Source: Calditrichaceae bacterium (GTDB taxonomy: Bacteria > Calditrichota > Calditrichia > Calditrichales > Calditrichaceae). Taken from it: 37,988 nucleotides of DNA. The DNA is taken from assembly GCA_016928315.1 (NCBI GenBank), contig JAFGKZ010000245.1, forward strand, positions 1-37,988. Direction: 5' to 3'. Shown here piece after piece: positions 19,575-28,468 of this stretch (its first letter is position 1; the number at the start of each line of letters is the position of its first letter). The notes below the pieces were generated by a model that saw only the letters and a list, made by a program, of their open reading frames with translations, was not told where the DNA came from and made no database searches. The translations under genes and the position numbers were made by a program.

Positions 19575-21515
19575 ATGAAATTTTTATTACTATTTGTATT
19601 TATTTTTAGTGCATTTTTATTTGCACAGGAAATTGCTTATACCAGTTTTGAAGAGCCCACGGTTTATTCTGGTCAGTACACAGATACGGGTGATAAGGCT
19701 GTGGATCATCCTTTAGTCAATAACGACAATCAACCTGTTTTAAATTATATTTCAACAGGAGGAGAGTTAGGATTCACTACATATTATTATAACACAAGAA
19801 ATGGTGATGGCTTAACTGATGGTGATTATGTTGGTGTTACTAATTATACCGGCAATTTTTCCAGTGGAGGTTATCCTGACAGCAGTAATGGATTTGAGAT
19901 GTCCGATGTGGATGGTTATATGGTAACCACGCTTGATACAGTTGATATTAGCGCTTACAATTCTGTTTTCGTATCTGTTGATTATTTTGTTAATGAGGAG
20001 TCTTATGAAGCAGATGATGCTCTAAGAATATGGTTGGTGGTTGACGATTCCATTGAAATTGATTTGTTGAATACAACCGGTACCGATATCGATGATTTAA
20101 ATATTGAGGAGGTCTGGAATACAGTTTCAAAAAAAATAAGTGGATATCATAAATTAAATGTAAAATTTGGATTGGACTGTAATGCCGCTTTTGAAGCTGT
20201 ATTTTTTGACAATATTCGCATCTACGACGGTGGTTCGCTCAATTTACCACCTACTCTTGAAGAATATTCTACCACAGATATGCCGCCAATGAGCGATTCC
20301 ACTTTCAGCGTTACGTATAGAGCCTATGATGTTGATGGCAATATTGCCAGTGCAACACTGCACTATTCAGTTAATGCCGGCGATACCGTCGATATTGAAA
20401 TGATATCACTGGGATATGATTCTCTTTATATGGCGGAAATTTCAGATACAGCCTATGTCAATGAAGATGAAGTAATATTTTGGATGTCTGCAACAGATGA
20501 CAGTGGATCTGTTGCAACCAGTGATTCAAAAGGATTTTTTGCCGGCCTGACACCAATTATAAACTTTAAGCTTTGGCAGGATGATACAGAATTACTTTAT
20601 GAAGGATATTATGTACGTACCAGCGGCGTGGCCACGGTGGGGGATAGCGTCTTTAGTAATACCAGTATGAATTTCTATATTCAGGATGAATATCCATCAG
20701 CGGTTAATATTTATGCCGAAGGCGGCGGCACTGTAAATATTATTCCCGGTCATCAGTACACGGTTACTGGCGTTATTACTCAATATGGCGGCATAGTGGA
20801 AGTTATGCCGGACCATCCGGCCACGGATGTAATTGATAAAGGCGAAGCGGTAATGCCTGCGCCGCTGGAACTGGATATGGCCACCTTGCTTTCGTTGGGC
20901 AGTGAACTGGAATCGTTGCTGATAAAGATTTTAAATGTGGATACGGTTGCTTCCGGAGATAATGATCCCTGGCCGATTACCAATGAGGATAATGCGGATA
21001 TTATGATCAGCGATGACGGCGGCGTCAGTCAGCTCGCTTTGCACATCGATAAGGATACGGATATTCCCGGCAGAAGCCAGCCTGTCTGGCCTCAGCATAT
21101 AACCGGTATTTTCAGCCAGTATGATTATTCCGCGCCGTATACCTCCGGATATCAGATTATACCCAGAAGTATTAATGATTTTGAAGCGGCAACGGCTATT
21201 GAAGATATTGCATCACTTATTCCGGATAAATTAATTCTGTATCCGGCTTATCCTAATCCATTCAATCCGGCAGCGACTATTCCATTTAACTTTCCGGTTA
21301 AAATGATTAGCGAGTCGGCTAAAAAATTGACGATTTATAATACATTGGGTCAGGTGGTTAAGGAATATACCTTATCCAATCTTAAGGCAGGTTTAAATAC
21401 CGTAACTTGGAATGGGCGTTCCAATGAGGGTAATCAGGTTGCATCCGGCTTGTATTTCGCTGTCCTGCAGGTCAGTAACCTGCGCCAGTCAACCAAGTTG
21501 TTGTTGTTGAAGTAA
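19575..21515 (+). CDS. Large secreted protein with anchor-type, OB-like and sorting domains
   Basis: A 646-residue exported protein. A signal peptide ends near FLFAQ. The first domain (about 20-215) starts IAYTSFEEP and looks like a carbohydrate-binding or choice-of-anchor sandwich. A Fibronectin/cadherin-like domain with YRAYDVDGNIASATLHYS follows. About 350-445 resembles an OB-fold with FYIQDEYPSAVNIYAEG and QYTVTGVITQYGGIVEVMP. Residues about 560-646 are the sorting tail with YPAYPNPFNPAATIPF and STKLLLLK at the end. ATG at 19575 is chosen because GGAGGAG precedes it and it opens the signal peptide; an in-frame ATG at 19536 has neither. No enzymatic motif was recognised. Confidence 0.75.
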   Translation: MKFLLLFVFIFSAFLFAQEIAYTSFEEPTVYSGQYTDTGDKAVDHPLVNNDNQPVLNYISTGGELGFTTYYYNTRNGDGLTDGDYVGVTNYTGNFSSGGYPDSSNGFEMSDVDGYMVTTLDTVDISAYNSVFVSVDYFVNEESYEADDALRIWLVVDDSIEIDLLNTTGTDIDDLNIEEVWNTVSKKISGYHKLNVKFGLDCNAAFEAVFFDNIRIYDGGSLNLPPTLEEYSTTDMPPMSDSTFSVTYRAYDVDGNIASATLHYSVNAGDTVDIEMISLGYDSLYMAEISDTAYVNEDEVIFWMSATDDSGSVATSDSKGFFAGLTPIINFKLWQDDTELLYEGYYVRTSGVATVGDSVFSNTSMNFYIQDEYPSAVNIYAEGGGTVNIIPGHQYTVTGVITQYGGIVEVMPDHPATDVIDKGEAVMPAPLELDMATLLSLGSELESLLIKILNVDTVASGDNDPWPITNEDNADIMISDDGGVSQLALHIDKDTDIPGRSQPVWPQHITGIFSQYDYSAPYTSGYQIIPRSINDFEAATAIEDIASLIPDKLILYPAYPNPFNPAATIPFNFPVKMISESAKKLTIYNTLGQVVKEYTLSNLKAGLNTVTWNGRSNEGNQVASGLYFAVLQVSNLRQSTKLLLLK

Positions 21516-21522
21516 ATTTTTT

Positions 21523-21586
21523 ACCCACCCCTCAAACCCCTCCCAAGAGGGGAGGCTAAAGTTTCTCTCTAATGGATGGGCTGGGT
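21523..21586. repeat. Pyrimidine-rich hairpin repeat
   Basis: Imperfect outer arms ACCCACCCC (21523-21531) and GGGCTGGGT (21578-21586) flank an inner hairpin in CCCCTCCCAAGAGGGGAGG around 21537-21555. It begins eight bases after the stop codon of the secreted protein. It resembles the element at 15991-16032 in design: a C-rich outer and inner stem. Confidence 0.55.
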
Positions 21587-21630
21587 GTGGCTTAAATACA
21601 TAATTCTGTTGTTGAGGTAATAGACGATTT

Positions 21631-21726
21631 TGTCATTCTGATCCCGATGTTTTAAGAATCGGGAGAAGAATCTTACTATATTAATAACTAATGGATTATT
21701 CGGTCGTATTCTCCCTCAGAATGACA
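21631..21726. repeat. MITE-like element with 11-base terminal inverted repeats
   Basis: TGTCATTCTGA at 21631-21641 and its exact reverse complement TCAGAATGACA at 21716-21726 bound a 96-base segment. Inside, ATCCCGAT and ATCGGGA form a further stem, followed by GAAGAATCTT. A sequence of this type (TGTCATTCTGA...GAAGAATCT) is common as a dispersed element in many environmental genomes. No coding capacity. Confidence 0.65.
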
Positions 21727-21783
21727 GTGAATATATACTTGCCCTTCGCCAGGGTTTAATAATTAACCTTAAAAGGATAATGA

Positions 21784-23826
21784 ATGAAACATTTGTTAGT
21801 TTTTTTATTATTACCAGTAATTTTATTTGCACAGGGTCATTTACTAATCACCGAAGTATTTATTCCGCCATCCGGTGAAGGCTCAGCTGCTTTTATTGAA
21901 ATCTTTAATCCGACGGATGCCGCGATTTCACTTAATCAGATGTATTTGGCCAATTACAACACCTACTATAATGTAGTTAACGGAACCTATTCAACCAATG
22001 CCGCTCATTTTGCCGTTAAATTTCCGGATATCGAACTGGCTGTTGATGAGGCATTGGCAGTCGCTGTAAATGGCCAAAGTTTTTTTGACTATTTTGGCAA
22101 ACGGGCGGATTATGAAGTTCTGGGTTCGGATGATACGACGCCGGATATGGTTCATCTCAAAGTCGGGGACAACCCTTCTTTTGCTTTATCCAGTGGAATG
22201 ATTGTGCTATTCGCCTGGGATGGATCCGCTGATCTGATTCAGGATGTGGATTATGTACCTTGGGGTATTTTTCCCAGCGGTTGGATGGATAAAAGTACGG
22301 TTGAAATTGATGGTCCCGATGCGGACAGTGATGCAGCTGCTTATAAAAACGATCTGGCAAAGTCTTCCCAACAGGCGCAAACTGTGCCGACCGGCGGAAA
22401 AAGTTTACAACGTTCCGGTTTGGCCGAAGTGGATGAAGTCAGTTCCGGTGGTAATGGTATTGGCGGCCATAATGAAGCAACCGAAAACTGGAAAAGCAGC
22501 TTTATCGCTGCCAGTCCCGGTCCGGGCAGTTTCAGCGAAAATCCCGGTGATGGAACCGGGGTAGCAGCCATGAGCCCTGATTCTGTTATTGCCGAAAGTG
22601 AAATCGATGCTGTTATTCAAATAACCGGCACAGCCGATTATACGCTGGCAACTGTAGAGATTACGATACCGGAAGCCTGGGGCTGGGATGGCAGTATTAC
22701 GCGCAGCGGTTCCGGCCTGGCCATGTCTTCTGAATCGATAAGCGGCAATGTTATCACAATTAGTAATGCAGTTATAACCGATACGGAAACTGGCACAGTA
22801 ACAATCAATAATTTAACCACGCCGGAACAAACAGGGAATTATGTGTTCGAAATTAAAACGGCCGTCGCCGGAGGCGGGTTGACCGAAATTGGCGTTTTCC
22901 CGGCTATTTATGTAAAAGAACCAATCGTTATAGAGACGATAAGCATACGTGAAGCTCGTCAGTTAGGCGATGGCAGCAGCGTAAGCGTAAAAGGCATCGT
23001 GGTTATAGGCGCCGGAACTTTGCGTGATGACCGGACCGACGTGTACATACAGGATGAATCCGGATATGCCATCAATATCTTCGATTTTGATCTAGATCCT
23101 CGTCTCGAGAGAGGCAATGAAGTGTATGTTCAGGGGACGATAGAGATATATGAAGGAAGAGTAGAAATTGTTGACTACACTTTAACGATTATTGCCACCG
23201 GCGTTGAACTGCCGGAACCTGTAAGGATTTCAACCTTTGACGCCAGCACCACCTTTTATGATTCCCGCTATGTAATGGTTGTCGGTAAAATTACAAGAAA
23301 ATCTTCCAGCGGCGGCGGCACCAATCTCAGTATCGACGACGGAACCGGCCCTTGCACGGCAAGAGTATGGGATACGGCAGACCTTAATCTGGATGAATTT
23401 GATGTGGATAGCACGGTTGTTGTGAAAGGTATGGGCAGTATATACAGTGACGCCGGCCAAATATTACTGGCGCATCAGGAAGATATTTATATACCCTTTT
23501 ATGACGGTTCACCCGCTAAATTAACATTACCTAATAAACCCTTTGTCCCTGATAAAGGTGAGGTATTAGATATTACCTTCCAGTCGGGCGCTGAGAGTTC
23601 ACACATCAATCTGCGGATTTTTGATTTAGGCGGCCGATTAATTCGAACATTAATGGACGGCGCGGGCATGCCAATTGAACAGACGATACAATGGAATGGA
23701 CGCAATCACATTGAAGAATTGGTTCCGCTTGGCACTTACATTTGCCATCTTGAGATAGTCAATGAAGACACGGGAAAACGAACAGAAAAAGTAGCGCCCA
23801 TTGTTGTAGGAACGGTGCTGAAGTGA
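21784..23826 (+). CDS. Secreted lamin-tail-domain protein with OB-like domains
   Basis: A 680-residue exported protein. Signal peptide to about FAQG. Residues about 17-120 match a lamin-tail domain (LLITEVFIPPSGEGSAAF, IEIFNPTD). A middle sandwich follows with repeated TGTVTINN-like strands. Two OB-like domains come next: about 388-470 (VSVKGIVVIGAGTL, DVYIQDESGYAINIF) and about 475-570 (YVMVVGKITRKSS, LSIDDGTGP). The C-terminal 90 residues have a FlgD-like fold (LRIFDLGGRLIRTLMDG, QWNGRN) without PNPFNP, ending KVAPIVVGTVLK. Lamin-tail plus OB combinations occur in secreted nucleases and surface proteins; no nuclease catalytic motif was found. The final AAG TGA is part of a repeat arm, so the stop may have been supplied by the repeat block. 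Confidence 0.78.
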   Translation: MKHLLVFLLLPVILFAQGHLLITEVFIPPSGEGSAAFIEIFNPTDAAISLNQMYLANYNTYYNVVNGTYSTNAAHFAVKFPDIELAVDEALAVAVNGQSFFDYFGKRADYEVLGSDDTTPDMVHLKVGDNPSFALSSGMIVLFAWDGSADLIQDVDYVPWGIFPSGWMDKSTVEIDGPDADSDAAAYKNDLAKSSQQAQTVPTGGKSLQRSGLAEVDEVSSGGNGIGGHNEATENWKSSFIAASPGPGSFSENPGDGTGVAAMSPDSVIAESEIDAVIQITGTADYTLATVEITIPEAWGWDGSITRSGSGLAMSSESISGNVITISNAVITDTETGTVTINNLTTPEQTGNYVFEIKTAVAGGGLTEIGVFPAIYVKEPIVIETISIREARQLGDGSSVSVKGIVVIGAGTLRDDRTDVYIQDESGYAINIFDFDLDPRLERGNEVYVQGTIEIYEGRVEIVDYTLTIIATGVELPEPVRISTFDASTTFYDSRYVMVVGKITRKSSSGGGTNLSIDDGTGPCTARVWDTADLNLDEFDVDSTVVVKGMGSIYSDAGQILLAHQEDIYIPFYDGSPAKLTLPNKPFVPDKGEVLDITFQSGAESSHINLRIFDLGGRLIRTLMDGAGMPIEQTIQWNGRNHIEELVPLGTYICHLEIVNEDTGKRTEKVAPIVVGTVLK

Positions 23827-24164
23827 GCTAAAGTTAAATGAAGTTGGGAAGTGCCTAAAATGCCTAAAGTGTGCTAAAGTTAAATGAAGTTGGGAAGTGA
23901 CAAAATTATGAAAAGTTCATAAGTGACTAAAATGCCTAAAGTGTGCTAAAGTTAAATGAAGTTGGGAAGTGACAAAATTATGAAAAGTTCATAAGTGCCT
24001 AAAATGCCTAAAGTGTGCTAAAGTTAAATGAAGTTGGGAAGTGACTAAAATGCCTAAAGTGTGCTAAAGTTAAATGAAGTTGGGAAGTGACTAAAATGCC
24101 TAAAGTGTGCTAAAATCAAATGAAGTTGGGAAATGACTAAAATGCCTAAAGTGCGCTAAAATTG
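23821..24164 (+). repeat. Direct array, seven units, 46 or 72 bp
   Basis: The word GCTAAAG/A starts at 23827, 23873, 23945, 24017, 24063, 24109 and 24155, giving steps of 46, 72, 72, 46, 46, 46. A unit consists of three TAAA cores (ACTAAAATG, CCTAAAGTG, TGCTAAAG) and a linker TTAAATGAAGTTGGGAAGTG. The 72-bp units carry an extra 26-base module containing TTATGAAAAGTTCATAA. The units are nearly identical, only the last two show several changes. Confidence 0.9.
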
Positions 24165-24175
24165 GAATATCAGAT

Positions 24176-24321
24176 GTTTTTTAACTTTAGTCACTTTAGT
24201 TCACTTTAGTGCACTTTGAAACTCAAAAAGAAACTTTAGTTCACTTTAGTGCACTTTGAAACTCAAAAAGAAACTTTAGCTCACTTTGAAATTAAGAAGA
24301 ACACTTTGAAACTTAGAAAAT
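24176..24321 (-). repeat. Inverted array upstream of the four-helix-bundle gene
   Basis: After a short spacer and T6, ACTTTAG or ACTTTG words recur on a strict 10-base grid from 24193 (24203, 24213, 24233, 24243, 24253, 24273, 24283, 24303). Full units are 40 bases: ACTTTAGTTC ACTTTAGTGC then ACTTTGAAAC TCAAAAAGAA; the third has lost ten bases and the fourth runs into the start codon. The words are the reverse complement of the CTAAAGTG cores of the direct array, so a transcript could fold into a long imperfect stem. Confidence 0.88.
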
Positions 24322-24684
24322 ATGGATAACAAAAAATTTGCTGCAGAGTTGGAGGAAAGAACAAAACAATTTGCCATTAATATAATCCGTCTTTGTAGTA
24401 TTCTGCCAAACTCAACTGAAGCCATTGTGCTTAGAAGACAATTGGTAAAAAGCGGTACTTCAATAGGAGCAAACTATCGGGAGGCAAATCGGGCACGAAG
24501 TAAAGCCGATTTTAAGAGTAAAATTCGAATCTGTGAAAGTGAGGCCAGTGAAACGCAATACTGGCTTGAAATACTCAAGGATTTAAAGTGGCTGCCGGAT
24601 TCGAGAATGAAAGAAATATTTTTAGAAAGTAAGGAGTTGTTGGCAATATTTTCAACAATTGGTGCAAAACTAAATAGAAAGTGA
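24322..24684 (+). CDS. Four-helix-bundle protein, 23S rRNA intervening-sequence family
   Basis: A 120-residue soluble, helical, basic protein. The family hallmark is visible: LRRQLVKSGTSIGANYREA (residues 38-55), then RSKADFKSKIRICESEASET and the YWLEIL helix (80-85). This is the S23 / four-helix-bundle family first found inside intervening sequences of 23S rRNA; the related Avd protein accompanies diversity-generating retroelements. Its biochemical function is not established; relatives form pentamers or bind nucleic acid. No rRNA, reverse transcriptase or template/variable repeat is near. The ATG has no Shine-Dalgarno sequence: the leader TTTGAAACTTAGAAAAT is itself a worn repeat unit. The gene is enclosed by repeat blocks on both sides, which suggests gene and repeats move or evolve as one unit. 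Confidence 0.9.
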   Translation: MDNKKFAAELEERTKQFAINIIRLCSILPNSTEAIVLRRQLVKSGTSIGANYREANRARSKADFKSKIRICESEASETQYWLEILKDLKWLPDSRMKEIFLESKELLAIFSTIGAKLNRK

Positions 24685-24772
24685 AAAAGTTTATAAGTGA
24701 CTAAAATGCCTAAAGTGTGCTAAAGTAAAATGAAATTGGGAAGTGACTAAAATGCCTAAAGTGTGCTAAAAT
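24685..24772 (+). repeat. Second direct array, downstream of the four-helix-bundle gene
   Basis: Begins right after the stop codon with AAAAGTTTATAAGTG, a worn copy of the end of the 26-base module, then two 46-base-spaced units with GCTAAA at 24719 and 24765. The units are the same as in the array at 23821-24164 with a few changes. It repeats the arrangement in front of the gene in shorter form. Confidence 0.88.
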
Positions 24773-24802
24773 TAAAAACAATATTAATAACAGTCTTTTC
24801 AG

Positions 24803-24985
24803 GTTTTTTAACTTTAGTCACTTTAGTTCACTTTAGTGCACTTTGAAACTCAAAAAGAAACTTTAGTGCACTTTGAAACTCAAAAAGAAACTTTAGTGCA
24901 CTTTGAAACTCAAGAAGAAACTTTAGTTCACTTTAGTGCACTTTGAAACTCAAAAAGAAACTTTAGCTCACTTTAGGCATTTTGA
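24803..24985 (-). repeat. Second inverted array, upstream of the PorV-like gene
   Basis: Bases 24803-24867 are identical over 65 bases to 24176-24240. ACTTTAG/ACTTTG words continue on a 10-base grid from 24820 to 24970, in units of 40, 30, 30 and 40 bases plus an end piece CTTTAGCTCACTTTAGGCAT, the inverted form of the direct-array core. The next gene starts at 25012, so this array occupies its promoter region. Together with 24685-24802 the 327 bases between the two genes contain nothing else. Confidence 0.88.
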
Positions 24986-25011
24986 AAATCACAATAGTTA
25001 TGAGGAACAAC

Positions 25012-25884
25012 ATGCGATTGATCTTATTAATAACTGTGTTAATACTATTTTCCATGCGGGCCTTTGCGGGCGTATTTGATGACCGCTATCCATCAGCGCG
25101 GGCTACCGCCATGAGCAATGCTTACGTTGCCGTAGCTAACGATGTCTGGGCCGGTTATTTCAATCCGGCTGGTCTGGCGGCTCTGCGGCAATACGAATTT
25201 GGTCTTGCCGTCCAGCGCCCCTATAATATGAAATTTTTCCGCAATGGATTTTTAGGTATTGCAGCGCCTTTACCTCAATCATTCGGGACGATAGGATTGT
25301 TGGCTGAAACCTTTTATGTGGATTATAACGGCAATCAGCTTTCCGTTGAAAACACGATAGGCCTGTCCCATGGTTTTTACCTGCTCAATGACATTCATTC
25401 CTCGCTTTCTGTCGGATACAATCTGAAATACTATTATTGGGATCTGGGGGAAAGCGTTGGCGGATTGGAGCTGGGTTCCACAGGTACTTTCGGCGTTGAT
25501 GTGGGATTACAGGCGTCTATTTATCGCCGTACACATGTGGGTGTTTATGTGTATAATATCAACGGGCCAACCATCGGATCGGAGACAGCCCATGATTTGC
25601 CGCAGCGGATTGTTATTGGCGCCGCCTATAAACCTTATACAGGATTGACCACCTCGCTGGCTATTGAGAAGACCATTGGATTTGATACCCAGGTTATGGG
25701 TGGATTTGAATTTTTCCTTGTTGACTGGCTGGCTATCCGCGCCGGCGCCAGTACTAATCCCAGCCGTTTTTCAGCGGGATTCGGACTTCAATACAGCGGG
25801 TTCCAACTGGATTACTCTTTTCAGACTCATGACGTTCTTTCTGAGACGCATAAATTCGGATTTATCTATCGGTTAGGAGGTTGA
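25012..25884 (+). CDS. PorV/PorQ-like outer-membrane protein
   Basis: A 290-residue barrel protein. A signal peptide ends near MRAFAG. The plug region has ARATAMSNAYVAVANDVWAG followed by YFNPAGLAAL, the pattern shared by PorV, PorQ and FadL relatives; amphipathic strands follow and the chain ends KFGFIYRLGG. PorV and PorQ take part in handing over or attaching proteins carrying C-terminal sorting domains, which fits the several such proteins in this window, but this is an inference. ATG at 25012 is preferred over 25000 and a TTG at 24982 because GAGGAA lies just upstream and it opens the signal peptide. First gene of a four-gene operon; its leader abuts the repeat block. Confidence 0.78.
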   Translation: MRLILLITVLILFSMRAFAGVFDDRYPSARATAMSNAYVAVANDVWAGYFNPAGLAALRQYEFGLAVQRPYNMKFFRNGFLGIAAPLPQSFGTIGLLAETFYVDYNGNQLSVENTIGLSHGFYLLNDIHSSLSVGYNLKYYYWDLGESVGGLELGSTGTFGVDVGLQASIYRRTHVGVYVYNINGPTIGSETAHDLPQRIVIGAAYKPYTGLTTSLAIEKTIGFDTQVMGGFEFFLVDWLAIRAGASTNPSRFSAGFGLQYSGFQLDYSFQTHDVLSETHKFGFIYRLGG

Positions 25885-25888
25885 TCCG

Positions 25889-28468
25889 GTGATGCATTCA
25901 GGAAATCGTTTGAAAAATATTTTAAAACTATTTTTATTTGATTGGTTTCTGCTGGCATTGCTAACTACCGGCGTCAATTCGGTTTTCGCTCAAACGGATA
26001 CAACCGGCATTTATTCCTATGAAAATCAGCTTGATATTAATAATGCGGAATTAGAAGAGATCGTCCGGTTGCCTGTTTCGCAGGAAATTGCTGAAGCTCT
26101 TTATAAACGTGTTACCTACCGGGGCGCATTTCAAAATATTTACCAGCTGCGGGAAATCGAAGGCATTGACCAGCAATTGTTGGAAAGACTGAAACCGTTA
26201 ATCCGCATAGAGCCCTATCAAACCTTAAGCGCTGCCCAGGAAAAGATCGAGCAGATTTATTACCGGCTGGACCGATGGAGTTCCAATGAGGGCGTCAATG
26301 ATGCCTTTATTGATCTCTGGATCGAAAAAGCGCTTGACCCCATGAACGTGAATACCGTGCGTTATGATGAATTAATGAATCTGCAGAATGTATCGCCCGT
26401 GGATGCTGTGGCTATCATTCGTCACCGCCTGGACGCCGGGGAAATCAGAAATATGCGTGATTTACGGGGCGTGCAGGGTTTATCTTATTATGGTTATTCC
26501 AATGCCCGCAATTTTCTGGATTATTCCGATCCGTCTGTGAGAGGCGTGCCTTTTCACGGCCATTTTACCATGCGGCTGGATAACACGCCGTTTATGACGG
26601 AAGAGGGAGAGGCTTCCGGTGAGGCTCTTCAGCAAACGGATATATATCCAACCGCTATTGGTACAAAAAGCAAATACAATTCGCTGCCGAATATGTATTA
26701 TAAAACCCGGTTCTCGATTGCCTCCAATTATAAATTCGGATTTTCCTATACCCGTTATTTAAATGAACCGGATGTATATTTAAATGAAAACGCTGCCATC
26801 AAAATACCGGACATGAAATTTTTTGCCGGGGTTGAAAATCTGCAATTTGGGGATTTTCAGCTACGTAAACTCTATATCGGGGATTACAGCGCCACCTTCG
26901 GCCAGGGCGTCATTATGGAAAACACCGATTTCTTTACACCCCGAAAATCCGGTTATGGTTTCCGAAAACGTTTCAACGGTATTACCGGTGATAATTCCCG
27001 GACAAGAGAATTTGGTTTACGCGGTATAGCTGCGGAGTTGGCCTGGAATAATATAAGCGCAACTATGTTCGGTTCATATACTGATCGGGATGCTATTTTA
27101 AACCGGACTATCGAAGATTCTTCGTTAGGTCGCAGTTTTAATCAATTTATTATTTTAGATCAGCGATTTAAATATGCCCTGGATGATGATGCCCGTAACA
27201 AAGATGATCTGAATTTAAGCTGGCTCAATTCAGTAAAAGAACTGACCTATGGCTCGCATTTCCAGTATGATTTTTTGCCCGGCACCTGGTTGGGTTTAAC
27301 CTATTACGAAAGCGCCTATGATAAATATCTCGATCCCGATCCTGAACAAGTAGTAGATGGAACAAATTGGTCGGATAGACAGGTTACCGCGGATACGGAA
27401 ATCAAGCAAGCCTATGGCGGGCCCATATCCAGGGGAGAAAATCCAATCTGGGATGATGCGGTATCGTTTCGTCGTGTTTACGGTTTCGATTTTCAAACCG
27501 TCATTAAAAATGTGGCTATTCAGGGCGAATGGGGTGAGTTGGATAAAGGCGGCGGTGTATTGAAAATGGGTGATGATCCTAAAGCGCTGGTTTTATCGGC
27601 CTATGTTCAGTTTCCCAGTCTGAATATTCTTGCCTTATACCGAAATTATGATGTCGGCTACGACAATCCATTTCAACGTTCCTTTTCCAATTATCGCCGG
27701 TTTAAGGGAACCATTTATGAAGACTATTATTATCTTCAGTCATCCCTCTATGGTCAGCTTTATGCCAATGCCGCTCAGCCCCAGGCTGAAGAAGGCTATT
27801 ATTTAAACACCTATTACCAGATGTCCCGGCAAATAACTATGCGCATGGAATATGATAACTGGTATCGTAAGGCGGATCGGGCTGAACATTATCGTCTGGT
27901 TGGTACAGTGGATTACCGTCCAATTTTTCCGGTAACTATTCAGCTGCGCCAAAAATGGCAGGCGCGTGAGGAGCAAAATGATGTCACCTTAAATTATTAT
28001 AAAAATCTGGAATTTCGCGGTCGTCTAAGGGTGCGTCTTTCCGGATATGATGATTTGAGCCTTATGTATGTTACAACAAAATTAGTAGTGCACCCGCGGC
28101 CGCGGGTATTTGGCGATATGACGGTTGATGGGGAGGCGATAGTCGGAAACTTTACGCATAATTTTAATCCTAATTTAAAAATAAGCGGTATGCTGGCCTA
28201 TTATAAAGGATTTTTCTGGAATTTTGAAGATACGCAGTTTAGTGTTTTGGAAAGCACGCGCGGCGCATTGCGGTATTGGTTATCCGTATATACACGGTTA
28301 AATCATTATCTTTCTTTGCGGTTAAAATATACGGCTGAACTGAATAAATCGATTGGTTTTATCAGATTTAAGGATGTACGGAATGAAGATCTGTCAAAAC
28401 ATTATGGGACCGACTGGAACCGGAAACGTACAGATTTTTACTATCTTGAATTAAACTATAGTTTTTAA
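25889..28468 (+). CDS. Helix-hairpin-helix protein with a large outer-membrane barrel
   Basis: An 859-residue exported protein. After a signal peptide (to about NSVFAQ, residue 35) come helix-hairpin-helix modules similar to ComEA: YENQLDINNAELEEIVRLP and YRGAFQNIYQLREIEGIDQ (about 44-105), then MNVNTVRYDELMNLQNVSP and IRNMRDLRGVQGLSYYGY (about 150-205). From about 215 to the end the sequence alternates like a beta barrel and ends YYLELNYSF with a terminal aromatic residue. ComEA-type HhH domains bind DNA without sequence preference in the periplasm during DNA uptake, so DNA binding at the outer membrane is inferred. Start GTG at 25889 (or ATG at 25892) after TAGGAGG; four bases after the previous stop. 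Confidence 0.8.
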   Translation: MMHSGNRLKNILKLFLFDWFLLALLTTGVNSVFAQTDTTGIYSYENQLDINNAELEEIVRLPVSQEIAEALYKRVTYRGAFQNIYQLREIEGIDQQLLERLKPLIRIEPYQTLSAAQEKIEQIYYRLDRWSSNEGVNDAFIDLWIEKALDPMNVNTVRYDELMNLQNVSPVDAVAIIRHRLDAGEIRNMRDLRGVQGLSYYGYSNARNFLDYSDPSVRGVPFHGHFTMRLDNTPFMTEEGEASGEALQQTDIYPTAIGTKSKYNSLPNMYYKTRFSIASNYKFGFSYTRYLNEPDVYLNENAAIKIPDMKFFAGVENLQFGDFQLRKLYIGDYSATFGQGVIMENTDFFTPRKSGYGFRKRFNGITGDNSRTREFGLRGIAAELAWNNISATMFGSYTDRDAILNRTIEDSSLGRSFNQFIILDQRFKYALDDDARNKDDLNLSWLNSVKELTYGSHFQYDFLPGTWLGLTYYESAYDKYLDPDPEQVVDGTNWSDRQVTADTEIKQAYGGPISRGENPIWDDAVSFRRVYGFDFQTVIKNVAIQGEWGELDKGGGVLKMGDDPKALVLSAYVQFPSLNILALYRNYDVGYDNPFQRSFSNYRRFKGTIYEDYYYLQSSLYGQLYANAAQPQAEEGYYLNTYYQMSRQITMRMEYDNWYRKADRAEHYRLVGTVDYRPIFPVTIQLRQKWQAREEQNDVTLNYYKNLEFRGRLRVRLSGYDDLSLMYVTTKLVVHPRPRVFGDMTVDGEAIVGNFTHNFNPNLKISGMLAYYKGFFWNFEDTQFSVLESTRGALRYWLSVYTRLNHYLSLRLKYTAELNKSIGFIRFKDVRNEDLSKHYGTDWNRKRTDFYYLELNYSF

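Follow-up and report, generated by a model that had tools for sequence, protein, structure and literature searches.

The intervening sequences (IVSs) of 23S rRNA in Coxiella and Leptospira carry a gene of the IVP (S23) family, enclosed in the loop that their terminal inverted repeats form (PMC4990558). The Coxiella IVS has heptameric direct repeats ahead of its open reading frame, and an RNase III site is situated at the first repeat (PMC4990558). Heptameric repeats are also found between genes: TAACTGA occurs in Beggiatoaceae and cyanobacteria (PMC4679880), GGGAATC occurs in Xanthomonas and Nostoc, with about 70 convergent pairs in Xanthomonas (PMC4692102), and heptameric repeats have been described for Geobacter as well. 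A text search of PMC4679880 and PMC4692102 found no mention of IVP, S23 or four-helix-bundle genes. The papers searched, which were mostly open-access ones, contained no statement joining IVP genes to genome-wide heptad repeats.

In the REP/REPIN-RAYT systems (for example PMC3116915), a gene lies between copies of a hairpin repeat that also occurs in gene-less form elsewhere in the genome, and the motif is lineage-specific, as it is in the IVP cassettes. The element described here shares this arrangement but lacks an HUH tyrosine transposase, and its ends are tandem words of 7-10 bp in variable number.

The element is located in a window of 37,988 nucleotides (the whole stretch of DNA that was analysed). 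Like the 23S rRNA IVSs, it encloses a gene of this protein family between terminal inverted repeats, which are able to form a stem around the open reading frame. It differs from them in being situated between protein genes, outside 23S rRNA, and in having many gene-less relatives in its genome. The IVSs with this gene family and the Coxiella heptads being already known, the element is a variant outside rRNA. An Rfam search of positions 21000-27000 matched no family, so that the element has no flanking rRNA, as originally predicted. The predicted pattern of direct array, spacer, T6 and inverted array on both sides of a single 120-residue gene was mapped at 23821-24991; the start of the predicted span (23821-24985) is confirmed, while the element runs a few bases further, to about 24991. 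The features are as follows.

23821-24160, + strand: left direct array, words CTAAA(G/A)TG.. in 46-bp and 72-bp superunits
24161-24182, no strand: left spacer, with T6 at its end (24177-24182)
24183-24310, - strand: left inverted array, with superunits of 40/30 bp made up of the words ACTTTAGTNC
24322-24684, + strand: gene for a 120-residue four-helix-bundle protein of the 23S rRNA IVP / S23 / TIGR02436 family, with an Avd-like fold
24690-24773 (approximate), + strand: right direct array, sharing 97% identity with a portion of the left direct array
24774-24809, no strand: right spacer, with T6 at its end (24804-24809)
24810-24991, - strand: right inverted array, sharing 97% identity with its left counterpart over 114 bp

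The repeat units consist of words of about 10 bp, CTAAAGTGNN in the direct arrays and its complement NNCACTTTAG in the inverted arrays. The left direct array has a TRF period of 46 with 7.3 copies, although a period of 72 fits too, and it starts with a unit that overlaps the upstream gene at its stop codon (23824-23826). The left inverted array has periods of 40, 30 and 10, and the outer end of the right inverted array pairs with the outer left array. Over 78 bp the direct arrays of the two sides share 97% identity; given this and the equally high identity of the inverted arrays, one hairpin module is a recent copy of the other. The doubled layout is a local duplication of a hairpin module that has left the gene between two complete modules. 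Both modules fold as RNA beyond chance (z = -3.8 and -5.1).

The gene is the only one encoded by the element (PF05635), which contains neither an HUH/Y1 transposase nor a recombinase. Its assignment to the 23S rRNA intervening-sequence family, made in the original prediction, is borne out by profile matches to PF05635 (E 1.3e-20, 74 bits against a curated cut-off of 33.8) and TIGR02436 (E 1.3e-26, 93 bits against a cut-off of 24). The model of the protein is a four-helix bundle with a pLDDT of 95 and matches the structures of BT_0352 (2RLD), XCC0516 (2GSC), which is a homopentameric ring (PMC4990558), and the Avd protein of diversity-generating retroelements, or DGRs (4DWL and 8UB7, TM 0.75-0.79 by target). 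The predicted fold is therefore the same as that of Avd, whereas the gene, unlike those of a DGR, has no adjacent reverse transcriptase, template repeat or variable repeat.

Homologues with flanking arms are found in Bacteroidota, Desulfobacterota, Cyanobacteria, Chloroflexota, Spirochaetota and others. The arms are tandem repeats with a period of 7-10 bp, direct upstream and reverse-complemented downstream, and the usual layout is one direct arm, then the gene, then one inverted arm. Autocorrelation peaks at 7 bp (also 14 and 21) for the diverse set of genes, whereas the CTTTAG clade has its peak at 9-10 bp. At a single scoring threshold (>=15), an inverted arm match was detected for 69% of 156 genes, compared with 0.8% of 1425 control positions (p ~1e-113); at this threshold the arms of about 30% of the genes are weak or undetected. 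Among close homologues with enough flanking sequence, direct words upstream and inverted words downstream were present in 61 of 76, compared with 5 of 2095 control positions. CTAAAG has a density of 8.8 per kb upstream and CTTTAG of 8.5 per kb downstream, against 0.41 per kb in controls.

The motif of the arms follows the protein. Matching arms (score >=15) occur in about 1-2% of pairs of loci with less than 40% protein identity, in 21% at 45-50% identity, in 52% at 50-55% and, once identity exceeds 55%, in 79-95%; a Mantel test gives r 0.74 (p 0.001). A weaker trend remains when the CTTTAG clade is left out (about 1-5% below 45% identity, 48-57% above 55%). Arms are retained across phyla at protein identities of about 60%. 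The host genome has seven IVP paralogues with mostly different motifs; two of them (in contigs C229 and C118) have weak arms, and the words that can be read in the others include GGAGACC, AGTGGTC, TTTGCAG and CTTTAG. Host composition does not explain the pairing, because close pairs span phyla and paralogues within one genome differ. Comparison of the loci thus shows that each protein lineage keeps its own repeat motif, and it strongly suggests that the protein recognises its own repeat words. Related cassettes could, on the other hand, share arms through common descent alone. Since shared descent of whole cassettes contributes, the pairing is strong, though not final, evidence for recognition.

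The upstream neighbour of the element encodes LTD and OB-fold domains and the downstream neighbour is PorV-like. These two genes adjoin in 23 of 23 relatives, with a spacing of -4 to 226 bp. In the window 1155 bp separate the upstream stop codon from the PorV match, and nearly all of this is element (repeats and gene). The comparison of empty and filled sites shows the element to be an insertion between genes that are adjacent in relatives, the latter being too divergent for target duplication to be judged at this site. Two related cassettes in Nostoc are precisely delimited. In plasmid pC052_A a 422-bp cassette occupies a place that is taken up by 188 bp of unrelated sequence in four relatives, its flanks being 91% and 99.7% identical to those in pC052_D. 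In another case a cassette is situated between cas2 and cas1 of a Nostoc plasmid, where about 60 bp have been replaced and cas1 is shortened. Neither of these two insertions has a target-site duplication; in both, comparison shows that some target DNA was removed or replaced. This family resembles MITEs in having gene-less inverted-repeat derivatives between genes, but differs from them in lacking a parent transposase and, at these two insertions, a target duplication.

Several syntenic pairs contain shifted copies of a cassette. The copies match on the same strand, showing a shift rather than an inversion, and in-place inversion as their origin was rejected. The movement of the cassettes is thus deduced from genome comparison, and it appears not to be recent everywhere: orthologues at the same site have been kept vertically in about 11 species of Flavobacteriaceae, so recent mobility is not universal. 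One intergenic site (L103 and L127) has a CTTTAG cassette in one genome and a gene-less hairpin with other words in the second genome; some sites may therefore be insertion hot spots.

The repeats are not confined to the neighbourhood of the gene. The 15-mer ACTTTAGTKCACTTT, allowing at most one mismatch, has 40 matches in the host genome compared with 0 for the reversed control, these copy numbers being taken from sequence searches of MAG contigs. The window words occur without an IVP open reading frame at 21 other places in the host genome, at least 9 of which have the direct-spacer-inverted layout. The TTTGCAG family is also dispersed there (91 matches against 13 for the control), and its words are present in the spacers of four gene-less CTTTAG hairpins (L015, L019, L020 and L029), which suggests nesting of hairpins. 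Across the phylum, window words are abundant in all four genomes tested that have an intact cognate gene, but in only 3 of the 27 tested that lack one (p 0.001). The three exceptions, G012, G029 and G031, have many repeats and no cognate gene; hairpins therefore persist, or move, without the gene. The original prediction had regarded repeats without the gene and the gene without repeats, with no shared boundaries, as evidence against a cassette. The genomes resemble this pattern only superficially: gene-less repeats are indeed common, yet they are hairpins of the same family. In one pair of genomes (L063 and L065) two sites are reciprocal, each being occupied by a gene-bearing copy in one genome and by a gene-less hairpin in its partner.

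These observations are probably best explained if the element belongs to a group of mobile cassettes that resemble IVSs but are mostly situated outside rRNA, and that encode an Avd-like four-helix bundle able to recognise the repeats of its own cassette; the dispersed heptad hairpins are then best read as non-autonomous derivatives. What is supported of the original proposal is a mobile cassette that stands on its own, comparable to the rRNA IVSs, with gene and repeats as parts of one unit: the empty sites, the motif that tracks the protein and two true 23S IVSs of the same phylum all agree with it. Each cassette would consist of a four-helix-bundle gene (IVP/S23/Avd fold) with inverted arrays of 7-10 bp tandem words as its ends. 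The protein, a ring of five bundles in solved relatives, would bind its own words as DNA or RNA. Such recognition would keep the words uniform and would let the protein act in trans on gene-less hairpins. As there is no recombinase in the cassette and no reverse transcriptase domain in several cassette-rich genomes, host-driven insertion of a hairpin intermediate is the least costly guess. The host process would perhaps most likely be the copying or capture of a single-stranded form of the hairpin, as nucleic acid exposed during replication or repair. The true 23S rRNA IVSs would have arisen where a cassette entered an rRNA loop that tolerates it, and the cassette in the window has in addition duplicated its own hairpin module.

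Another reading places the element at the level of RNA: it would be transcribed within the host operon, fold by means of its arms and be cut out by RNase III, with the protein acting on RNA and mobility being rare and incidental. This is unlikely as the whole explanation, although it is compatible with the mobile-cassette reading and does not exclude it. The architecture is common to two members of the same phylum within 23S rRNA. In L168 the 23S location is confirmed by Rfam and the arms (TCAAGGAACAAGGTTCAAGG and its complement) are heptad-like and clearly alignable; L217 is placed in 23S only by a short sequence signature and by 70% protein identity to L168. Together with the Coxiella heptads, whose first repeat carries the RNase III site (PMC4990558), they show that rRNA IVSs have both the gene family and the type of arm in common with the free-standing cassettes. 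The fold is that of Avd, a component of an RNA-bearing complex, and the cassettes have a strong sense bias: of 144 genes whose neighbours are close on either side, 117 point in the same direction as both neighbours, and 6 run against two neighbours that are themselves co-directional. This bias could come from selection for expression and not be a property of insertion. The 6 antisense cassettes, like the one between cas2 and cas1, argue against the RNA-level reading, and RNA cutting does not explain the gene-less dispersed copies. Both window modules fold significantly, which agrees with the RNA-structured element originally proposed; nevertheless, folding does not demonstrate RNA structure, because any inverted repeat folds. 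Arm scores over the whole clade are higher within loci than between them (own 20.0, cross 16.2), but the same-site orthologues of Flavobacteriaceae show no locus-private compensation (own 19.5, cross 19.4), which counts against the RNA-level reading, and arm compensation was dropped as proof of base pairing.

The hairpins might instead be autonomous repeats that the host copies through slippage or template switching, with the IVP genes as passengers that landed between the arms. The genomes that carry repeats without a cognate gene, the nesting of hairpins of different families in one spacer and the excess of gene-less over gene-bearing forms all point this way. The reading is nevertheless improbable: protein identity predicts the motif across phyla, paralogues in one genome differ, and the words are absent or nearly so from most genomes without a cognate gene. 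Still less probable is a retroelement that depends on a reverse transcriptase supplied in trans, such as the DGR enzyme, with the IVP protein as an Avd-like partner. The shared fold, the sense bias and an Avd-like open reading frame adjoining a reverse transcriptase in the host genome would fit such a retroelement. However, no RVT_1 gene was found in the complete or nearly complete genomes G001, G005, G019 and G039, which hold 9, 12, 8 and 4 IVP genes, respectively, and a reverse transcriptase is thus disfavoured as a required partner. A fixed, immobile regulatory or structural intergenic region would account for the site shared by the Flavobacteriaceae species but is contradicted by the empty and shifted sites, and is very improbable.

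If the mobile-cassette reading is true, rRNA IVSs would no longer be a curiosity but a special case of a widespread mobile element, and a very common bacterial gene family of unknown function would gain a role. There would also be a testable origin for heptameric intergenic repeats known for decades, and a pointer to insertion without a known transposase. The published repeats (TAACTGA, GGGAATC and the cyanobacterial STRR) have the same unit length as the arms described here and are likewise intergenic, and the convergent GGGAATC pairs of Xanthomonas resemble the gene-less hairpins (PMC4692102); the difference is that gene and motif are linked in the cassettes. It is predicted that these families belong with the cassettes and that XCC0516 of Xanthomonas is framed by GGGAATC. 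The broadest form of the proposal, to which we would give slightly less than an even chance, is that of a bacterial-wide class of mobile elements that have no known recombinase and that each pair an Avd-fold protein with its matching short tandem words; rRNA IVSs, STRR, TAACTGA and GGGAATC would be members or derivatives of this class. Such a class may explain short bacterial DNA repeats that have long been unexplained.

A tblastn search of viral contigs with the window query found no relatives. Of twelve plasmid copies inspected by eye (Cyanobacteria, Chloroflexota, Treponema and Monoglobus), most have arms of this kind; L240, with GTAATTC/GAATTAC, and L249, with AGTCGGA/TCCGACT, are examples. 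On cyanobacterial and other plasmids (L241, L242, L243, L244, L245, L247 and L250) the cassette is often within defence loci, which include cas2-cas1, DISARM, restriction-modification and DUF1156/HEPN. PADLOC assigned no defence family, despite several copies adjoining cas, DISARM or restriction genes.

In one of the Flavobacteriaceae (L077) tandem, near-identical gene-less hairpin modules of about 120 bp each are arranged around a single IVP gene. A homologue with 62% identity (L174, in G020:C174) is broken by two stops and has the variant words AAATGCCTT; the usual words CTAAAGTG are absent from its genome, and the locus has the appearance of a decaying cassette. The single RVT_1 gene of the host genome is on contig C197, away from the element in the window. 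There, at positions 473-2065 (L288), an Avd-like open reading frame of 116 residues is accompanied by a YMDD reverse transcriptase and, downstream, by an asparagine-rich repeat-like stretch; this locus is likely to be a diversity-generating retroelement.
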